Shown: positions 52,988 through 64,000 of the stretch, piece by piece
Position numbering within the stretch: position 1 is the stretch's first letter
Layout of the letters: each line of letters opens with the position of its first letter
Assembly: GCF_009707545.1 (NCBI RefSeq)
Contig: NZ_WLYK01000012.1
Location: forward strand, 1-64,000
DNA: 64,000 nt
DNA from: Nakamurella alba
GTDB taxonomy: Bacteria > Actinomycetota > Actinomycetes > Mycobacteriales > Nakamurellaceae
Direction: 5' to 3'
Program-made: the position numbers and the translations under genes
The notes under the pieces: generated by a model
Databases searched by the model: none
What the model was told of the DNA's origin: nothing
What the model saw: the letters and a program-made list of their open reading frames with translations, nothing else

Positions 52988-54469
52988 ATGACGACCGTCC
53001 CCGCCGTGCTCGGCATCGATCTCGGTACCAGCTCGGTGAAGGTGGCGCTGACGGATCAGGTGGGTGCCGTTGTCGCGCAGGCCGTCTGCGACTACCCGGT
53101 GGACCGGCGCAACCCGGGCTGGGCCGAGACCGATCCCGAGGCCTGGTGGCAGGCCATCCGGACGGCGACCGCGCAGGTGCTCGCCACCGCGCCGGCGGCG
53201 TCGGTGGCCGGGATCGCCGGGATCGGGTTGTCCGGGCAGATGCACGGCGTGGTGCTGAGCGATGCCGAGCACCGGCCGGTGCGACCGGCGGTGCTCTGGG
53301 CCGATGCCCGGGCCGAGCCGCAGCTGGACCTGCTGCGGGCGCTGGACCTGTCGGTCCGGGCGCGGCTGGCGAACCCGCTGAGCCCCGGGATGGCCGGCCC
53401 GGTGCTGGCCTGGCTGCACGTGCACGAGCCGGAGGTCCTCGACGCGGCGCGGCACGCGCTGCAGCCCAAGGACTGGATCCGGGCCTGGCTGACCGGCGTC
53501 GCCGCCGGCGAGCCCAGCGATGCCTCGGCCACGCTGCTGTTCGACGTGCTGGCCGCGGACTGGGACGACGAGGTGGTGACGGCCCTGGGGATCGACCGGC
53601 GACTGCTGCCCGATCTGCTCCCGTCCGCGCTGACCGAGGCCGGCCGGCTCACCACAGCCGCAGCGGAGGCGCTGGGCCTGCAGGCCGGACTGCCGGTGGC
53701 CGCCGGAGCCGGCGACACCGCCGCTGCCGCACTGGGTTCCGGGCTCTTCGAGCCGGGCACCGTGCAGCTGACGATCGGCACCGGGGTGCAGATCGTCACG
53801 GTCGTGCCGGCACCCACCGCGGAGTCGGTGGCCGGTCTGCACGACCCGGTCACCCACCTCTACCGGTCGGCGACGGCCCACGGCTGGTATGCGATGGCCG
53901 CGGGACTGACCGGCGGCCAGTCGCTGGACTGGGTGCGGCGGATCCTCGGCGCGGAGTGGTCGGAGCTGTACGGGGTCGCCGATCGCGGCAGCCGCCCGGA
54001 CGACCCGGTCTTCCTGCCGCACCTGGTCGGCGAGCGCACGCCGTACCTGGACACCAACATGCGCGGTGCCTGGACCGGCCTGGACGCCCGGCACGACCGG
54101 GTGGCACTGCTGCACTCGGCCCTCGAGGGCGTGGCCTTCGCCGTCGCCGACTGCCTGGACGCGCTGCCCGGGATCCCCTCCGGGAACAGGGATCTGCGGC
54201 TGGCCGGCGGCGGGACCACTGCTCCGGCATGGCGGCAGCTGCTGGCCGACGTGCTCGAAGCGCGACTGCACGCGGTCGACGTGCCGGGCGCGTCCGCCCG
54301 GGGCGCGGCGTTGATCGGCGCGCGGGCCGCCGGGCTGCTCGACGACGCCCGGCTGACGGAGGTCGCCACCCCGCACACCACACTCATCGCCGAGCCGGGA
54401 CCGGCGGCGGAGGCACTGCGCGACCGGCGGTTCCGCTACCGCGACACCCTCGCTCGGTTGCGCGCCTGA
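52988..54469 (+). CDS. xylB: xylulokinase-like FGGY carbohydrate kinase
   Basis: 493 residues. LGIDLGTSSVKVAL is phosphate loop 1, GIGLSGQMHGVVL the XylB-type substrate segment, GAGDTAAAALGSG holds the catalytic Asp, QLTIGTGVQIV and LRLAGGGTTAPAWRQLLADV the C-terminal ATP-binding FGGY-like motif. It phosphorylates a ketopentose such as D-xylulose, feeding the pentose-phosphate pathway together with the transaldolase-like enzyme. 66 nt after the dehydrogenase gene. Confidence 0.9.
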   Translation: MTTVPAVLGIDLGTSSVKVALTDQVGAVVAQAVCDYPVDRRNPGWAETDPEAWWQAIRTATAQVLATAPAASVAGIAGIGLSGQMHGVVLSDAEHRPVRPAVLWADARAEPQLDLLRALDLSVRARLANPLSPGMAGPVLAWLHVHEPEVLDAARHALQPKDWIRAWLTGVAAGEPSDASATLLFDVLAADWDDEVVTALGIDRRLLPDLLPSALTEAGRLTTAAAEALGLQAGLPVAAGAGDTAAAALGSGLFEPGTVQLTIGTGVQIVTVVPAPTAESVAGLHDPVTHLYRSATAHGWYAMAAGLTGGQSLDWVRRILGAEWSELYGVADRGSRPDDPVFLPHLVGERTPYLDTNMRGAWTGLDARHDRVALLHSALEGVAFAVADCLDALPGIPSGNRDLRLAGGGTTAPAWRQLLADVLEARLHAVDVPGASARGAALIGARAAGLLDDARLTEVATPHTTLIAEPGPAAEALRDRRFRYRDTLARLRA

Positions 54470-54491: not shown

Positions 54492-55379
54492 TCACCGGAG
54501 CAGCGGCGCCACCTCCGCGCCCAGGAAGGCGGCCAGCCCCTCCGGGTCGGGTTCGTCCCGGGTCGGCTGCACCGCGATGCTGGTGGCACCGGCCTCGACG
54601 AAACGCCGTAGTCCGTCGGCGATCTCATCGGCCGTGCCGATCACCGAGATGCCGTCGGCCGGCTCCGCCTCCCAGGCCAGTCGCTCCCGCTCCATCCGCT
54701 CCGCCGCGTCCGGGCCGGTGGCCACCGGGACCGAGGTGATGATCTCGTGCGCCGGGTCGAGCCCGGCGGCGGACCGCACCCGGTCGGCGAGTTCGCGCAC
54801 CTCACGGGTGGTGGACGGTGGTCGGAACCCGGACACCAGGGTGCCGTCGGCCAGCTCCGCACACAGCGCCAGCGACTTCGGCCCACCGGCACCCGCGAAC
54901 AGCGTCGCCCGGCCGGTCGGCGGATGGTCCAGTGCCACCGCATCGAGGTGTACGTACCGGCCGTCGACCGTCACCGTGTCCCCGTCGAGCAACGACCGCA
55001 CCGCGGTCAGGTACTCGCGGAGCAGGGTGACCGGCGAGGCGGCTTTCGCGCCGACCTGCCGCATCCAGTCCTGCACCCCGTGGCCGACCGCGCCCAGGAA
55101 CCGCCCGGGGAACATCCGGTCCAGCCCGGCGATCTCCATGGCCAGCAGCGCCGGGTTGCGCAGCGGCGCCGGGAACAGCCCGACACCGACCCGCACCCGA
55201 TCCGTCCGGGCCAGCACTGCACCGGCCGTCGAGGCGCCGGCCTGCTTGAAACAGTCCTCCCAGAGCCAGAACTCGCCCAGCCCTGCCCGGTCCGCCGCTG
55301 TGGCGACGGACAGCAGACGCTCCGGCGGCCACCACGGGAGGAAGGTGATCCCCAGCTGCGGTGTCGGATGGTCGCCCAT
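54492..55379 (-). CDS. LLM-class (F420-dependent) oxidoreductase
   Basis: 295 residues from ATG 55379. Luciferase-like TIM barrel: LGITFLPWWPPERLLSVATA, EFWLWEDCFKQ, RVRVGVGLFPAPLRNPALLA, MFPGRFLGAVGHGVQDWMRQ, LLREYLTAVRSLLDGDTVTV. These are marks of actinobacterial F420 enzymes; the substrate is unknown. F420H2 could come from the Fgd encoded at 38441. It follows the DUF5685 gene by 45 nt on the same strand. Confidence 0.9.
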   Translation of the reverse strand: MGDHPTPQLGITFLPWWPPERLLSVATAADRAGLGEFWLWEDCFKQAGASTAGAVLARTDRVRVGVGLFPAPLRNPALLAMEIAGLDRMFPGRFLGAVGHGVQDWMRQVGAKAASPVTLLREYLTAVRSLLDGDTVTVDGRYVHLDAVALDHPPTGRATLFAGAGGPKSLALCAELADGTLVSGFRPPSTTREVRELADRVRSAAGLDPAHEIITSVPVATGPDAAERMERERLAWEAEPADGISVIGTADEIADGLRRFVEAGATSIAVQPTRDEPDPEGLAAFLGAEVAPLLR

Positions 55380-55424
55380 CCGCCCAGTCTGCCGCCACCG
55401 GGGCGACACCACCACCGCAGCCGG

Positions 55425-56726
55425 TCAGTTGCAACTGCAGTCGCAGCAGCACCCGTCGCCGCAGCAGCAGTCGCAGTCGGTGCAGTCGCAGCAGTTCGAA
55501 CAGCCGGGGTCGTGCCGCTTCCCGGTGCAGGGGTTCTCGTGCGAGGCGCAGCAGGCGTAGCCGGTGCAGTACACACCGACCCACGGCAGCACGTTGCGCC
55601 AGAACGGCCGGTCCGGCGGCGGTGGCGGGGGCCCGGGCGGCGGGCCGGGGTCGCCCTGACCCGGCGGCGGGTAGCCGGGCGCCGGGTGGTTCGGTGGCGG
55701 GTAGGGCGGCGGGGCGGACGGCCCCGGGGGCGGCGGCCCCGGGTATCCGAGATCCGCGGTACCGGCCCGGCGGTCGACCGTGGTGGCGGTCGCACCGTCC
55801 ACGGCATGGCCCGGCACCGTGCAGTGCCGCCCCCTGTCCCCACCGAAGGCCCGGTGCAGCGCCGCTCGGCTGCCGTCGACGAGAAGTGCCCGGACCAGGC
55901 GGTTGTCGCGCAGCTGGAGCCGGTCGTACCCGGCCCGGATGCGGCGCACCAGGCCGACGCACTCCGAGCGGACCTGCTCCGGCGCCGCGCCGGTGGCGGT
56001 GATCGGGTTGAAGGCGCCGGCCCGGGCATCGGCCTGCTGGTCCTCCACCGCGTCCAGCAGATGGGCGAGAGCGCCGAAGGCCTCACCGATCTCACGCAGC
56101 GGCTGCTCGTTCTCCGGGACCCCGGCCAGCGTGGCCGAGGCGGCGAAGATCCGTCCGGTCGCCGATGCGGTCGGCGCCACCACCGCGGACAGTGGGTCCC
56201 CGGGCCGCACGGCGGATTCGAGGGCAGCCTGGCCGTCGAGGTCCTCGAGGACCTGCAGCGCACCGATGGAGTCGGCGATCGGCCGGTCGACGAAGGCTCC
56301 TCGCCGGAGCGGGCCGGCGAGCGCACCGGCCGCACCCGCCTTCACCAGCGCCCCCGCCTTCCCGGCCGGACCGGTCGGGCTGCCCAGCCCGACCCGGCGC
56401 TCACCGATGACGTCGGCGGCCTTGGCGGCCGCCAGGGTGAGCGAGGCCGTGGCCCCCAACCTGACCGAGACCGCCTGGGAGGGCACCACCTCCGCCGTCC
56501 GCATCCCCCGCAGCGCACACGGGCCGGCGGTGCGCCGCGGAGCCTGTTCGGGCTGCTGCGCCTCGAGCAGGACCGACAGCATGACGGCATCGGTGTTGGT
56601 CGTCGCACGTGCTGCCTGCCCCCGGCTGTCGCGCAGGGTCAGGCACAGACCGCACAGGTGGGCACGCCACTGCTCGAGGAGCTCGTCCCCCAGGGTGTGC
56701 CGGCAGGCATGGACCACACCGAACAT
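55425..56726 (-). CDS. DUF5685-family protein with proline-rich linker and Cys-rich tail
   Basis: 433 residues from ATG 56726. N-terminal domain (about 1-310): MFGVVHACRHTLGDELLEQW, RAHLCGLCLTLRD and DAVMLSVLLEAQ identify DUF5685, a helical family with conserved Cys. Residues about 320-375 are a Pro/Gly-rich linker (PPPGPSAPPPYPPPNHPAP). Residues 387-433 contain 17 Cys in 47 positions, with runs CDCCCGDGCCCDCSC. The tail could bind metals like a metallothionein, or cross-link. Probably co-transcribed with the TPR and AAA genes upstream. Confidence 0.82.
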   Translation of the reverse strand: MFGVVHACRHTLGDELLEQWRAHLCGLCLTLRDSRGQAARATTNTDAVMLSVLLEAQQPEQAPRRTAGPCALRGMRTAEVVPSQAVSVRLGATASLTLAAAKAADVIGERRVGLGSPTGPAGKAGALVKAGAAGALAGPLRRGAFVDRPIADSIGALQVLEDLDGQAALESAVRPGDPLSAVVAPTASATGRIFAASATLAGVPENEQPLREIGEAFGALAHLLDAVEDQQADARAGAFNPITATGAAPEQVRSECVGLVRRIRAGYDRLQLRDNRLVRALLVDGSRAALHRAFGGDRGRHCTVPGHAVDGATATTVDRRAGTADLGYPGPPPPGPSAPPPYPPPNHPAPGYPPPGQGDPGPPPGPPPPPPDRPFWRNVLPWVGVYCTGYACCASHENPCTGKRHDPGCSNCCDCTDCDCCCGDGCCCDCSCN

Positions 56727-56799
56727 GAGCGGGATTCGATCACGCCGCAGCCGCTCGCGCAGCAGTTCCGGGCCGACACCACCTGACCCGGCGGCACAC

Positions 56800-57879
56800 T
56801 CACCCGTGCGGCGGAACCGACCGCCGCGGTCCGGCCGCGACGTCGAGCCTGCGCACCCGACGGCGCAGCAGTTGGCCGGCGACGATCCAGCACACCACGG
56901 CCGCGACGGTGAGGATGCCCCGCACCGCGTCGACCGGCAGCAGCAGCGAGACCAGCAGCAGCAGCACCGAGGCCAGCAGCGTGGAGGCCGCCGCCGTGAG
57001 CAGCCGGTCCCGGCGCGGCAGGCTGAGCACGTAGGGGCGCAGCCGCCCGCGGACCAGCCCGACGGTCCGGACAGCCCCGACCGCCAGCACCAGTGCGAGC
57101 ACCGCGGCGAGCGCCAGGGACGGCCACCGGATGTCCTGGCCGGCCACCCGGCTGACCAGCCAGGCGGCGATGAAGAAGATCCACAGCCACCGCTGCATGG
57201 GCATGGCGAGTGTGTTGATGAACGCGACGTCGAGGTTGTGCAGGCCGACGGAGAGGCGCGGGTCCTGGCCGAGGGCGTCGGCGAACCGGGCCGCGGCGGA
57301 CAGCGACCGGCGCCGGCGCAGGCTGACCAGGCCGAGTCCGTTGATCGCGGCGGAGTTCTGCGGATCGAGCCGCAGTGCCTCCAGGTACTCCCGTTCGGCG
57401 GTGGCCACATCGCCGCGGTCCAGCGCGATCCCGGCCTTGAGGTTGTGCGGTTCCGGCTCCTGCGGGGCCAGGGCGATGGCGCGCTCCACCACCGGGAGTG
57501 CCCTGGCCGGCGAATTGTCGGCGAGCACGGCGGCCAGGACCTGGTGGGTCTGCCAGACGAACGGTGAGATCGACACCGCCTGAGCGGCACTGTGTTCCGC
57601 TGCGAGGTGCTGACCACGACGGTTCTCTGCCAGTGCCAGCAGCCGGAGCGGCCAGTCGTTGCCGGGGTCGGTGCGGTGGGCCCTGCGGGCGAACTCGGCC
57701 GCGGCGTCCGGACGCTGCAGCGCCATCTCCGCGCGGGCGGCCAGGCAGAGCGCGCGGGTGTTCTGCGGGTCGTCGGCCAGCACGGCGGACACCGCCCGCA
57801 TCGCGTCGGCGGGCCGCTCGAGGTCGAGCAGGTGGTCCGCCCGGTCCAGCTGCGAGCCCGGGTCGCGCTCCGGGTTCAC
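56800..57879 (-). CDS. TPR-repeat membrane protein
   Basis: 359 residues, GTG start overlapping the TGA of the AAA gene. Residues 1-215 contain about five TPR-like helical pairs (ADDPQNTRALCLAARAEMAL, RTDPGNDWPLRLLALAENRR, LDPQNSAAINGLGLVSLRRR). Residues about 225-345 have four hydrophobic segments, so the TPR domain is anchored at the inner membrane. TPR modules mediate protein contacts; the natural partner is the adjacent AAA ATPase, which also starts with TPR-like repeats. Confidence 0.85.
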   Translation of the reverse strand: MNPERDPGSQLDRADHLLDLERPADAMRAVSAVLADDPQNTRALCLAARAEMALQRPDAAAEFARRAHRTDPGNDWPLRLLALAENRRGQHLAAEHSAAQAVSISPFVWQTHQVLAAVLADNSPARALPVVERAIALAPQEPEPHNLKAGIALDRGDVATAEREYLEALRLDPQNSAAINGLGLVSLRRRRSLSAAARFADALGQDPRLSVGLHNLDVAFINTLAMPMQRWLWIFFIAAWLVSRVAGQDIRWPSLALAAVLALVLAVGAVRTVGLVRGRLRPYVLSLPRRDRLLTAAASTLLASVLLLLVSLLLPVDAVRGILTVAAVVCWIVAGQLLRRRVRRLDVAAGPRRSVPPHG

Positions 57880-59195
57880 CAGCGCCGCACCCGCTTGAGG
57901 TACTCGCGCAGCTCGGCGTAGCTGTTGTCCGCGTCGGCGAACATCACCACGTTGCGGGCGGTGTCCAGCCAGTCGCCGATCGACGGGCGGACCTCACCGC
58001 GGGCCGCCAGCAGGTCGTTCATCCCGATCATCCGCGGGGTACCGGTCCGCGCGCTGTCCAGCAGGGCCCGTTCGGCGCCCGACTCGCAGAGGTGCTGCAG
58101 GTCCGCCCCGGAGAACCCGTCGGTGGCCCGGGCCAGCGCCGCCAGGTCGATGCCCTCGACCGGTCGGTGCCGCAGGTGGTACCGCAGCACCGCCTCCCGC
58201 GCCGGCTGGTCCGGCGGCAGCACGAGCAGTGTCCGGTCGAGCCGGCCGGGACGGCGCAGGGCCGGGTCGACGTCCCACGGCTGGTTGGTCGCGGCCAGCA
58301 CGAACACGCCCTCGTTGGCGCCGTTCACCCCGTCCATCTCGGTCAGCAACTGGTTGACCGCGCCGCGCATGGCGGTGTTGCGGGTCTGCGTCCGGCGCTG
58401 CCCGAGCGCGTCGATCTCGTCGAGGAACAGCACGCAGGGTGCGCTGCGGCGGACCAGCTGGAACAGCTCGGCGACGTTGCGCTCCGAGGAACCCACGTAG
58501 ATGTCGAGGATGTCGGACAGTCCCACGCTGACGAACCCGGCGCCCAGTTCCCCCGCCACCGCCTTGGCGATGAAGGTCTTGCCGCAGCCGGGCGGCCCGT
58601 ACAGCAGCAGACCGCCGCGCAGGCTCTTGCCGTACAGCCGGCGCAGTTCCGGATTGCGCATCGGGGCCAGGAACGCGGCCTCCAGCCGCTCCTTCACCTG
58701 CGACATCCCGCCGACGTCGGCGAGTGTCACCCTGGCCTGCTCCACCTCCCAGGCCGCGCCGGTCGGCTGTTCCCGCTCGGCGTCCAGGAACATCGGATGG
58801 GCGATGTCGCCGATCTGCTGTTCCGCGGCCGACCAGTCGAAGCCGGGCCCGGGCACTCCGGTCGGTGAAGCGGGTGAAGCCGGCGCAGTCGGTGACATCG
58901 GCGTGGTCTCGGGACCCGGAGTCGCCGTGTCGTGGGGAGCCGTCTCGTGGGTGGGCGTGTCGTGGGTGGGCACACCGGGGCCGCCACCCGAACCCCCACC
59001 GCCGAGCGCCTGGGCCATCAGGGCGCGGGCGGCCGCCGACCCGGGATCCCGGGCAAGAGCAGCGGCGCACTCGGCGATCGCCTCCGGCACCTGCCCGCCC
59101 TGAAGCAGCACCCCGGCCAGGTGCAGCCGCAGCGGCAGGTCGTCGGGGGCCGCGTCCACCGCCCGGCGGAGGCTGGCGATCAGCTGCGGGTCCAC
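57876..59195 (-). CDS. AAA ATPase with N-terminal TPR-like repeats
   Basis: 439 residues from GTG 59195; TACGTT on the minus strand (59202-59207) lies 6 nt upstream, so the transcript looks leaderless. Residues 1-65 are TPR-like helices, 66-118 a Thr/Pro/His-rich linker. The AAA module follows: ADVGGMSQVKERLEAAFLAP, Walker A GPPGCGKT (200-207), Walker B LFLDEID (256-262), sensor 1 and arginine finger in AATNQPWDVDPALRRPGRLD, sensor 2 GFSGADLQHLCE. It is of the Cdc48/FtsH/Vps4 AAA type but has no protease domain, so it is an unfoldase or remodeller. Confidence 0.88.
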   Translation of the reverse strand: MDPQLIASLRRAVDAAPDDLPLRLHLAGVLLQGGQVPEAIAECAAALARDPGSAAARALMAQALGGGGSGGGPGVPTHDTPTHETAPHDTATPGPETTPMSPTAPASPASPTGVPGPGFDWSAAEQQIGDIAHPMFLDAEREQPTGAAWEVEQARVTLADVGGMSQVKERLEAAFLAPMRNPELRRLYGKSLRGGLLLYGPPGCGKTFIAKAVAGELGAGFVSVGLSDILDIYVGSSERNVAELFQLVRRSAPCVLFLDEIDALGQRRTQTRNTAMRGAVNQLLTEMDGVNGANEGVFVLAATNQPWDVDPALRRPGRLDRTLLVLPPDQPAREAVLRYHLRHRPVEGIDLAALARATDGFSGADLQHLCESGAERALLDSARTGTPRMIGMNDLLAARGEVRPSIGDWLDTARNVVMFADADNSYAELREYLKRVRRW

Positions 59196-61598: not shown

Positions 61599-64000
61599 TC
61601 AGTTGACCGGGATGATCTCGATCGCCGTCACCTTGGCGTTCTCGATCCGCCGGATGAAGTCGATGGTGACCTCTCCGTCGGCGACGGTCGTCTGGAACTC
61701 CCGGACGATCGCCTTGTTCGCACCCGCGGCCTGCGCCCAGATGTCGAAGTTGGTGAGCACCGTGGTGTTCTCCAGCCGGACGTCGAAGGTGCGCTGGTTG
61801 GCGCCCGTCTTGTTCAGCTCGGCGAAGTGCAGCCGCACCCGGTAGGCACCGTTCTCCACCGGGACGGAGAACCCGAAGGCCCGCGCCCCGACCGGGGTCC
61901 CGTAGGTCTGACCTCCGGTCCACTCCGACTGGAAGATGGCGTTGTTCATGCCGGCCGGGATGCCCGTGATGGTGTTGGCCTGTGAGTACGCCCCGCCACC
62001 CGACACCCAGCCCGAGCAGTTCGGGACCGAGGTGCAGCGGGTCCAGGTGACCCCCGAGACCGACTGCGCCCCACCACCGGCGTTGATCCGGATGGTCGGC
62101 CGGTTCGCCGCCGGCCGGGTGGCGTTGACCGTGGCCGACCGCACCGACTCGTTGCCGGTCTGGTCCACCGCGGTGACCTGGTAGTACGACGCCACACCGG
62201 TCGGAGCCGCCGCGTCGAGGTACGACGTGCCCGTCACCAGGGCGGTGTTCACCTTGGTGTAGGTGCCGGTCGCCGAGGTCGAGCGGTACACGTTGTACCC
62301 GGCCAGGTCCGAGGCGGTGTTCGTCGCCCAGTTGACCGTGACGCCGCCCGCGGCGCCGGTCGCCGCCACCCCGGTGACCGCACCCGGGGGTGTGGTGTCC
62401 GGTGTGGTGACCGGGAGGATCTCGATCGCCGAGATCTTGGCGTTCTCGATCCGCTTCATGAAGTCGATCGTCACCGCACCGTCGGTGATGGTGACCGGGA
62501 ACTCCCGGACGATCGCCTTGTCGATACCGCCGGCCTGCACCCAGATGTCGAAGTTGCTGAGGACGGTGGCGTTCTCGATCCGGACGTCGAAGGTCCGGGT
62601 GTTCGCCGCCGTCTTGTTCAGCTCCGCGAAGTGCAGACGCACCCGGTAGGAACCGTTGGTCACCGGCACCGAGAACCCGAAGGCCCGGGCACCGACGGTG
62701 ATTCCGCTACCGCCGGTCCACTCCGACTGGAAGATGGTGTTGTTCATCCCCGCCGGAATGCCGGTGATCGTGTCCTGCTCGGAGTAGGCGCTGCCGCCGG
62801 AGACCCGGTTCGAGCAGTTGCCGACCGAGGTGCAGACCGACCACACCGTGCCGTTCACGTTCTGCGTGCCACCACCGGCGTTGATCCGGACGGTGGTGCC
62901 ACCGCCGGGGGCCGCCGGCCGGGTGGCCTGGACGGTCGCCGACCGCGCCGACTCCTGGGCCGCCGTGTTGACCGCGGTGACCTGGTAGTACGACGTGCCG
63001 ACCGGGGCCCCGGTGTCCGAGAAGGACGTGCCGGTGATCAGCCCGGTGTTCACCAGGGTGAACGTGCCGGTCGCCGAGGCCGAGCGGTACACGTTGTACC
63101 CGGCCAGACCCGTTGCGGTGGAGGCGGTCCAGGTGACCGTGTTACCGGTCGCCGCACCGCTGGCCGCGACCCCGGTGACCACCGGCGGCGGGGTCGGCGC
63201 CGTGGTCCTGGTGCCGTTGACCGTGGCGGACCGCACCGACTCGTTGCCGGAGTTGTCCACCGCGGTGATCTGGTAGTACGACGTCCCCACCGGGGCCGAG
63301 GTGTCGGAGAACGAGGTCCCCGTCACCAGGGCGGTGTTCACCTTGGTGTAGGTGCCGGTGGCCGACGACGCCCGGTACACGTTGTAGCCCGCCAGGTCCG
63401 TGGCGGCCGAGGCACCCCAGGTGAGGGCGACGGCCGTCGTGGATCCGGTGGCCGCGACGCCGGTGACCACAGCCGGCGGGGTGGTGTCCGGCCGGGTCGC
63501 GGTCACCGTGGCCGAGCGGGCCGACTCGTTGGCCGAGGTGTCGACCGCGGTCACCTGGTAGTACGACGCGACACCCTGCGGCGCGGTGGTGTCCGAGAAG
63601 GACGTCCCCGTCACCAGTGCGGTGTTCAGCTTCGTGTAGGTGCCGGTGGCCGACGACGCCCGGTAGACGTTGTAGCCGGCCAGGTCCGTCGCCGGGTTCG
63701 CGGTCCAGCTGACCGTGATCCCGGTGGTCGACGCTGTCGCCGCCACCCCGGTGGTCACGCCCGGAGGCGTGGTGTCCGGCCGGGTCGCGTTCACCGTGGC
63801 CGAGCGGGCCGACTCGTTGGCCGAGGTGTCCACCGCGGTGACCTGGTAGTACGAGGCCACGCCGACCGGGGCCGACGTGTCCGAGAAGGACGTGCCGGTC
63901 AGCAGTGCCGTGTTGACCTTGGTGTAGGTCCCGGTCGCCGAGGAGGCCCGGTACACGTTGTAGCCGGCCAGATCCGTTGCGGCCGAGGCCGTCCAGGTCA
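61599..64000 (-). CDS. large FN3/malectin surface protein, C-terminal part (runs off right edge)
   Basis: About 800 codons open to the window edge, so the N-terminus and any signal are outside. From the edge inward: a partial FN3 domain, three full FN3 domains of about 95 residues (each with YNVYRASSATGTYTK-like and SYYQVTAVD strands), a malectin domain (TVRINAGGGTQNVNG to FMKRIENAKISAIEILP), another FN3, then a second malectin domain (PTIRINAGGGAQSVSG to FIRRIENAKVTAIEIIP). Malectin domains bind carbohydrates. This is probably the carbohydrate-binding stalk of a secreted enzyme or adhesin. No C-terminal membrane anchor or sortase signal is present. Confidence 0.88.
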   Translation of the reverse strand, partial: TWTASAATDLAGYNVYRASSATGTYTKVNTALLTGTSFSDTSAPVGVASYYQVTAVDTSANESARSATVNATRPDTTPPGVTTGVAATASTTGITVSWTANPATDLAGYNVYRASSATGTYTKLNTALVTGTSFSDTTAPQGVASYYQVTAVDTSANESARSATVTATRPDTTPPAVVTGVAATGSTTAVALTWGASAATDLAGYNVYRASSATGTYTKVNTALVTGTSFSDTSAPVGTSYYQITAVDNSGNESVRSATVNGTRTTAPTPPPVVTGVAASGAATGNTVTWTASTATGLAGYNVYRSASATGTFTLVNTGLITGTSFSDTGAPVGTSYYQVTAVNTAAQESARSATVQATRPAAPGGGTTVRINAGGGTQNVNGTVWSVCTSVGNCSNRVSGGSAYSEQDTITGIPAGMNNTIFQSEWTGGSGITVGARAFGFSVPVTNGSYRVRLHFAELNKTAANTRTFDVRIENATVLSNFDIWVQAGGIDKAIVREFPVTITDGAVTIDFMKRIENAKISAIEILPVTTPDTTPPGAVTGVAATGAAGGVTVNWATNTASDLAGYNVYRSTSATGTYTKVNTALVTGTSYLDAAAPTGVASYYQVTAVDQTGNESVRSATVNATRPAANRPTIRINAGGGAQSVSGVTWTRCTSVPNCSGWVSGGGAYSQANTITGIPAGMNNAIFQSEWTGGQTYGTPVGARAFGFSVPVENGAYRVRLHFAELNKTGANQRTFDVRLENTTVLTNFDIWAQAAGANKAIVREFQTTVADGEVTIDFIRRIENAKVTAIEIIPVN
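63202..64000 (-). repeat. near-identical FN3-coding tandem repeats
   Basis: The FN3 modules are repeated at the DNA level with periods of 279 and 288 bp (for example the GTGGTGTCCGGCCGGGTCGC block at 63481 and again at 63769). High identity between adjacent copies suggests recent duplication or ongoing homogenisation, and would allow copy-number change. Confidence 0.7.

Follow-up and report, generated by a model that had tools for sequence, protein, structure and literature searches.

A two-gene module of an AAA-TPR protein and a TPR partner in Nakamurella alba and many other actinobacteria

Msp1 and ATAD1 are protease-free AAA membrane dislocases, thought to pull proteins from the membrane. 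Two further systems combine an AAA protein with tetratricopeptide repeats (TPRs): EccA of type VII secretion has TPRs and then an AAA domain, and the MoxR-VWA-TPR (Bat) modules link an AAA protein to membrane proteins with TPRs. The actinobacterial Cpa is an AAA ring without its own protease, built from an N-domain and two AAA modules (PMC6017811). Here we analysed a stretch of 64,000 nucleotides from Nakamurella alba (contig NZ_WLYK01000012.1, positions 1 to 64,000; hereafter the window), in which an AAA protein with TPRs (AAA-TPR) is encoded next to a TPR-membrane partner. A preliminary description of this locus had grouped the pair with a DUF5685 gene and a luciferase-like oxidoreductase gene, and had proposed a membrane-docked remodelling complex acting on a Cys-rich protein. 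The four genes were indeed found at the given coordinates, consecutive and on the minus strand, and the depiction of a protease-less AAA protein with TPR-like repeats, coupled through 4 nt to a membrane TPR protein, was borne out. The membrane-docked complex is compatible with the AAA/TPR pair, which is conserved, while DUF5685 and the luciferase-like enzyme do not belong to it. AAA-TPR and its partner are a genuine two-gene module in many actinobacteria, and the analysis separates this real unit from a false four-part complex of Cys-rich protein and redox enzyme. The module is apparently undescribed so far: searches limited to open-licence PMC full text found no description of the two-gene unit, which is weak evidence.

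The AAA-TPR protein and described AAA systems

The AAA-TPR gene (57876..59195, minus strand; 439 amino acids [aa]) was characterized from its open reading frame (ORF), Pfam and NCBIfam matches, an alignment, solved-structure scores and the C-termini of its relatives. Pfam matches were obtained to TPR_19 at residues 7-62, AAA at residues 196-324 (7.1e-42) and AAA_lid_3. The two-repeat N-terminal TPR is followed by a variable Pro/Thr-rich linker, a GFDWSAAE...PMF motif (about residues 117-137) conserved in many members, one classic AAA module (about residues 150-385) and a conserved C-terminal extension. The last residues of the window protein are KRVRRW, and the C-termini of the family are mostly basic residues plus Leu, Arg or Trp. 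The alignment comprised 36 of the 39 rows initially chosen (L086, with a stop in its stretch, L085 and L092 were left out). GPPGCGKT, TN (sensor) and RRPGR were invariant in all 36 proteins, as was a Walker B ending in [LFI]DE, and the pore-loop residue was aromatic in 31 and Met in 5. Judged by this alignment, the ATPase motifs are intact. No peptidase match was detected among the families listed for AAA-TPR (25 of 30 Pfam families), no zinc metalloprotease follows the AAA module among the families listed (the protein ends after its short C-terminal extension), and no hydrophobic segment was seen by eye.

The protein was compared with described AAA systems by means of curated models and their cut-offs. 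Cdc48/p97 and Cpa have the AAA module in common with AAA-TPR, and Cpa is likewise protease-free; however, they carry an N-domain and two AAA modules, whereas AAA-TPR carries a short TPR and one module (the main text of PMC6017811 makes no use of the term TPR). The CDC48 model scored 202.4 against a cut-off of 802.65, with the D1 and D2 pair absent and the single AAA at residues 196-324. FtsH resembles AAA-TPR in its AAA module (211.5 bits to the FtsH model) and in a membrane setting, here provided via the partner, but AAA-TPR has neither an M41 peptidase match nor a hydrophobic segment, misses the FtsH cut-off of 600 bits, and is matched over the AAA part only (model positions 153-399 of 598). 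The test for a proteasome-activating ATPase (Mpa/ARC/PAN) was negative (pup_AAA 129.5 versus 504.75) and no HbYX tail is present, with a penultimate Tyr in none of 70 AAA C-termini (L086 being off-frame, and L087 and L125 cut and not true ends). EccA, like AAA-TPR, holds TPR and AAA in one protein, yet the EccA (ESX) equivalog reached 41.9 bits against a cut-off of 466.65. A MoxR-type AAA was excluded (AAA_3, 12.6 bits versus a cut-off of 27), and Msp1/ATAD1 differs in having its own anchor, whereas the anchor here sits in the separate TPR protein. The AAA core is similar to that of the IetA defence model in PADLOC (115.9 bits, no cut-off given) but fell short of the NCBIfam IteA/IetA equivalog (121.6 versus 510). 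The IetA partner, IetS, is a subtilase, whereas the usual partner of AAA-TPR is a TPR protein, and no subtilase was found among the neighbour families listed (25 of 126). Thus, by curated cut-offs, AAA-TPR is not Cdc48/Cpa (having one module), FtsH, a proteasome ATPase, EccA or IetA.

When solved structures were ranked by whole-chain score, Cdc48/p97 came out on top, helped by its two AAA modules per chain. In a module-by-module comparison among relatives, the C-terminal AAA of tandem Cdc48-like proteins scored 162-180 bits and FtsH proteins, with HExGH present, scored 161-173 bits. Because these scores are nearly equal, AAA-TPR was classed only as a classic AAA protein of Cdc48/FtsH type, and a plain 'Cdc48-like' label was dropped. 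In viral contigs, none of the 80 of 135 AAA matches listed spans query residues 1-97, and the best of those listed has 40% across residues 156-423.

The TPR partner and its linkage to the AAA gene

The TPR-membrane partner (56800..57879, minus strand; 359 aa) was analysed by its ORF, Pfam, an AlphaFold2 model and a hydropathy count. Its GTG start lies within a 4-nt GTGA sequence (57876..57879, minus strand), in which the AAA-TPR stop and the TPR start overlap. A scan for promoters and terminators was uninformative, with 0 promoters and 1 terminator-like site, within the TPR gene, versus 0.8 expected. TPR_16 was matched above its Pfam cut-off in three stretches (4.8e-14). In the AlphaFold2 model (predicted local distance difference test [pLDDT] 91), six TPRs (about residues 7-205), predicted to form a TPR superhelix, precede four long C-terminal helices that carry the hydrophobic segments. 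The rows listed from a fold search with this model were general TPR proteins and pointed to nothing for the helical C-terminal part. Hydrophobic segments were counted crudely, by hydropathy, in the 65 nearest partners: 58 carry two or more, in most cases 3 or 4; of the other seven, L040, L057, L064 and L071 have none, L081 and L122 have one, and L117 is cut by the contig end. Both the loop between transmembrane segments TM2 and TM3 (RGRLRPYVLSLPRRDR) and the C-terminal end (RRRVRR) are basic; by eye and by the positive-inside rule, this argues for TPRs in the cytoplasm. We infer that the partner usually resides in the inner membrane with its TPR domain facing the cytoplasm. The partner alignment included the window and 43 of 72 other partner stretches. 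More hydrophobic segments than usual, 6-11 by the same crude count, were observed in the partners of L049, L050, L052, L059 and L121.

Linkage was surveyed at 70 loci, the window's own included, composed of 57 (L033-L087, L091 and L092) of 80 related loci and 13 from a second search; L116 was excluded because it duplicates L058, and the archaeal AAA matches L088-L090 and L093-L112 were left out. Since the rough gene caller missed true genes, including DUF5685, counts were based on six-frame ORFs plus profiles, with 'adjacent' meaning on the same strand and within 300 nt or overlapping (an ORF also counted if it overlapped the AAA gene in its longest form). By the partner profile, 61 of the 70 loci have a TPR partner adjacent to the AAA gene, downstream in 53 and upstream in 8; as the profile was itself built from partners at these loci, the sample behind this count is not independent. 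In four further loci (L074, L113, L114 and L120) the partner is located 3.1-8.2 kb downstream on the same strand, and ten of the 70 have two partner copies. When the ORFs of the 70 loci were clustered, only two clusters recurred across lineages, that of the AAA protein (70) and that of its TPR partner (49 with plain BLAST clustering, more by profile). A constant third partner was rejected, as the other recurrent clusters were lineage-bound or scattered in position and strand. Similarly, the commonest Pfam family among 123 neighbours (up to three nearest genes, by the rough gene caller, at each of 42 chosen loci) was present in 5.

The distribution of the pair was patchy. Within the genus, a strong AAA-TPR match was found in 7 of 17 Nakamurella genomes (own included), the rest having only general AAA proteins at about 1e-45. 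In a sample of 198 genomes drawn evenly across the phylum, six carried AAA-TPR at E <= 1e-80. A partner of >140 bits was found in three of these six, always beside the AAA gene, and in no other genome; weaker, TPR-like matches to the partner profile were found in 34 further genomes.

Two genomic settings were observed in passing. At L115 (6454-14405), the AAA/TPR pair lies inside a proteasome locus on the opposite strand, flanked by a Mpa/ARC-like AAA gene and two proteasome subunit genes (gene names by eye). At L123, L124, L119, L117, L125 and L068, the AAA-TPR gene is downstream of a carD-ispD-ispF-like chromosomal block (IspD and YgbB/IspF families matched by Pfam, CarD by eye); no TPR partner was found at L123 and L124.

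History, mechanism and alternatives

The ancestry of the pair was examined in AAA, TPR and concatenated trees of 30, 25 and 23 rows, respectively, chosen after comparison of distance matrices. The window AAA and TPR proteins each grouped with Mycolicibacterium/Mycobacterium (Shimodaira-Hasegawa-like approximate likelihood ratio test support of 90 and 86, below the 95 mark), and in both single-gene trees they were apart from four Nakamurella congeners. In the concatenated tree, grouping with Mycolicibacterium was supported at 98 and a Nakamurella clade was rejected by the approximately unbiased (AU) test (p-AU 0.006), which suggests that the two genes most likely moved together. The AAA and partner distance matrices were correlated (r = 0.64; 0 of 1,000 permutations as high; 58 of 70 loci), with shared species history contributing. 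The window DUF5685, by comparison, fell within a clade of six Nakamurella sequences (support 99), and is by this tree a native Nakamurella gene. Most likely, the two genes of the pair entered this genome, or were kept in it, together, and their history differs from that of the adjoining DUF5685; instead of transfer, duplication followed by differential loss could also account for this.

With about even confidence, we propose that the pair is a co-inherited and occasionally horizontally moved module, in which a protease-free AAA remodelling motor is docked on a usually membrane-bound TPR receptor. The first gene would supply the single-module classic AAA+ protein of Cdc48/FtsH type, and the second a TPR superhelix, usually anchored in the inner membrane with its TPRs in the cytoplasm, that may serve as a membrane receptor collecting AAA subunits and/or client peptides. 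Candidate contacts on the AAA protein are (i) its own short N-terminal TPR; (ii) the FDWSAAE...PMF linker motif; and (iii) its basic-hydrophobic C-terminus. An ATP-driven AAA ring would then pull the client through its central pore, so that the client may be extracted from the membrane, or a membrane-proximal complex dismantled, and not degraded. Domain make-up, intact ATPase motifs, absence of a protease or HbYX tail, linkage and co-inheritance come from sequence, model or comparison; the hexamer, docking and extraction are postulated by analogy with Cdc48 and Msp1, and the direction and client are likewise hypothetical. More tentatively, the module may be a bacterial, protease-free membrane dislocase whose motor, a classic AAA protein, is separate from the membrane receptor, the two recognising each other via TPRs or a C-terminal peptide. 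It would then be a portable counterpart of Msp1, or of Cdc48 together with its membrane receptors, and would have spread horizontally among actinobacteria. If the pair pulls clients from the membrane, actinobacteria would gain an extraction device independent of FtsH and the proteasome.

Several observations weigh against the docked-motor proposal. The partner is absent from 5 of the 70 loci (L061, L123 and L124, plus L087 and L125, both cut at contig ends), and from the stretch read in three of the six AAA-positive genomes of the phylum sample (L302-L304). At L040, L057, L064 and L071 it has no hydrophobic segment at all, so that not every member depends on docking at the membrane. The AAA module scores almost the same against FtsH (161-173 bits) and against the tandem Cdc48-like proteins of relatives (162-180 bits). 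With respect to history, the single-gene AU tests do not reject a Nakamurella clade (p-AU 0.126 and 0.184), and congeners L121 and L122 were left out of the AAA, TPR and concatenated trees.

Some of the same observations would be expected of a soluble chaperone pair for assembly or disassembly, in which the AAA ring and TPR protein act on a complex in the cytosol and membrane anchoring is a convenience of particular lineages. The four loci with segment-free partners and the partnerless AAA genes in L123, L124 and L302-L304 favour this explanation, but at least two hydrophobic segments were counted in 58 of the 65 nearest partners, and we consider it possible, at well below even confidence. A stress or anti-phage (conflict) module, i.e., a patchy, mobile AAA and sensor with a membrane effector, is unlikely. 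Patchiness (7 of 17 genus genomes, own included, and 6 of 198 across the phylum), movement of the pair between genera and the matches of the AAA core to IetA models are all consistent with such a module; however, the IetA matches span the AAA core only and stay far below the NCBIfam cut-off (121.6 versus 510), PADLOC matches were few among the 123 neighbours of the 42 loci (top family 3 of 123, no background control), and some loci are syntenic within a genus or occupy ordinary chromosomal sites (e.g., beside ispD/ispF). A membrane complex of four parts, in which the Cys-rich DUF5685 is remodelled with the aid of the luciferase-like enzyme, is highly improbable and was rejected on the linkage survey and tree discordance: the genes are tightly spaced on one strand of the window and a single operon is possible, but neither neighbour is linked to the pair anywhere else among the genomes examined, the ancestry of DUF5685 differs from that of the pair, and the Cys tail is found in long-form DUF5685 without AAA/TPR nearby.

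Neighbouring genes

The DUF5685 gene (55425..56726, minus strand; 433 aa) starts at ATG 56726, 73 nt past the TPR stop, and was assessed by Pfam (PF18937, 68.1 bits versus a cut-off of 26.7), linkage and tree. Its product has a Pro-rich linker and a Cys-rich tail, with 17 Cys among the last 60 residues. Such a tail, with 14-22 Cys over the same length, was detected in all 15 distinct long-form DUF5685 proteins listed, window included, and is usual in long-form actinobacterial DUF5685; it is absent from the shorter L153 and also from L152 and L154. Of 41 genomes of the order, the own one among them, 8 have DUF5685, and only in the own genome does it lie beside the AAA gene. G001 and G008 hold both genes, but separated by about 1.9 Mb in G001 and on different contigs in G008, and in G002, G012 and G013 DUF5685 is present and the AAA-TPR gene absent. 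Across the phylum sample it occurred in 14 of 198 genomes; of these, the own genome and G081 alone also carry the AAA gene, which in G081 is on another contig. None of 18 other DUF5685 neighbourhoods (about 5.6-8.2 kb on each side) contained an AAA, TPR partner or luciferase-like gene, and no DUF5685 relative was found in viral contigs. In the literature, DUF5685 turned up in one paper. The suggestion that Cys-rich DUF5685 is the substrate of the complex finds no support in these neighbourhoods or in the differing ancestries, and the gene-order survey recommended in the preliminary description recovered the four-gene arrangement in the own genome only, with nothing conserved beyond the AAA/TPR pair, an outcome which that description had itself named as refuting and which applies to half of its claim.

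The luciferase-like (LLM) oxidoreductase gene (54492..55415, minus strand; 307 aa), likewise a neighbour only, was assessed by Pfam, NCBIfam and linkage. It starts at GTG 55415, 9 nt past DUF5685, or at ATG 55379. Although Bac_luciferase was matched at 8.4e-43, the label 'F420-type' was not established: none of the NCBIfam families listed (25 of 28) reaches its cut-off, the best F420 subfamily model scoring 87.1 versus 218.4. Luciferase-like homologues (E <= 1e-30) in other genomes are far from the pair, the closest about 47 kb off in G007. Overall, the position of both genes beside the pair is an accident of neighbourhood and not part of the module, and nothing ties the AAA/TPR pair to Cys-rich or redox biology.

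An isoprenoid-synthase-like fold was considered for DUF5685. The tail-less L152, L153 and L154 have two Asp-rich motifs that are, by eye, reminiscent of isoprenoid synthases, and hmmsearch of the DUF5685 profile against solved chains returned an octaprenyl diphosphate synthase at an E-value of 0.0068. This hint was not backed by hhalign, in which comparison with trans-isoprenyl diphosphate synthase scored 20.0 and 25.5 versus 24.2 for a TPR control, and a single-sequence model of DUF5685 was too poor to help (pLDDT 43.8). The DUF5685 alignment left out L155 (stop), L152, L154 and L163; the first three of these were included in the hhalign comparison and the DUF5685 tree, and L163 in neither. 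In six of the seven genomes of group g25 (L295 and L297-L301), DUF5685 adjoins a conserved opposite-strand gene of 145-147 aa, which we take to be SepF-like in look, and is also near a conserved gene of about 400 aa.

Elsewhere in the window, a convergent sugar-kinase-like gene (label by eye) terminates at 54469, beyond the luciferase-like gene. On the minus strand at 61599-63956, coming within 44 bases of the window end, a 785-aa open frame has repeated fibronectin-III-like and malectin-like stretches (by eye).

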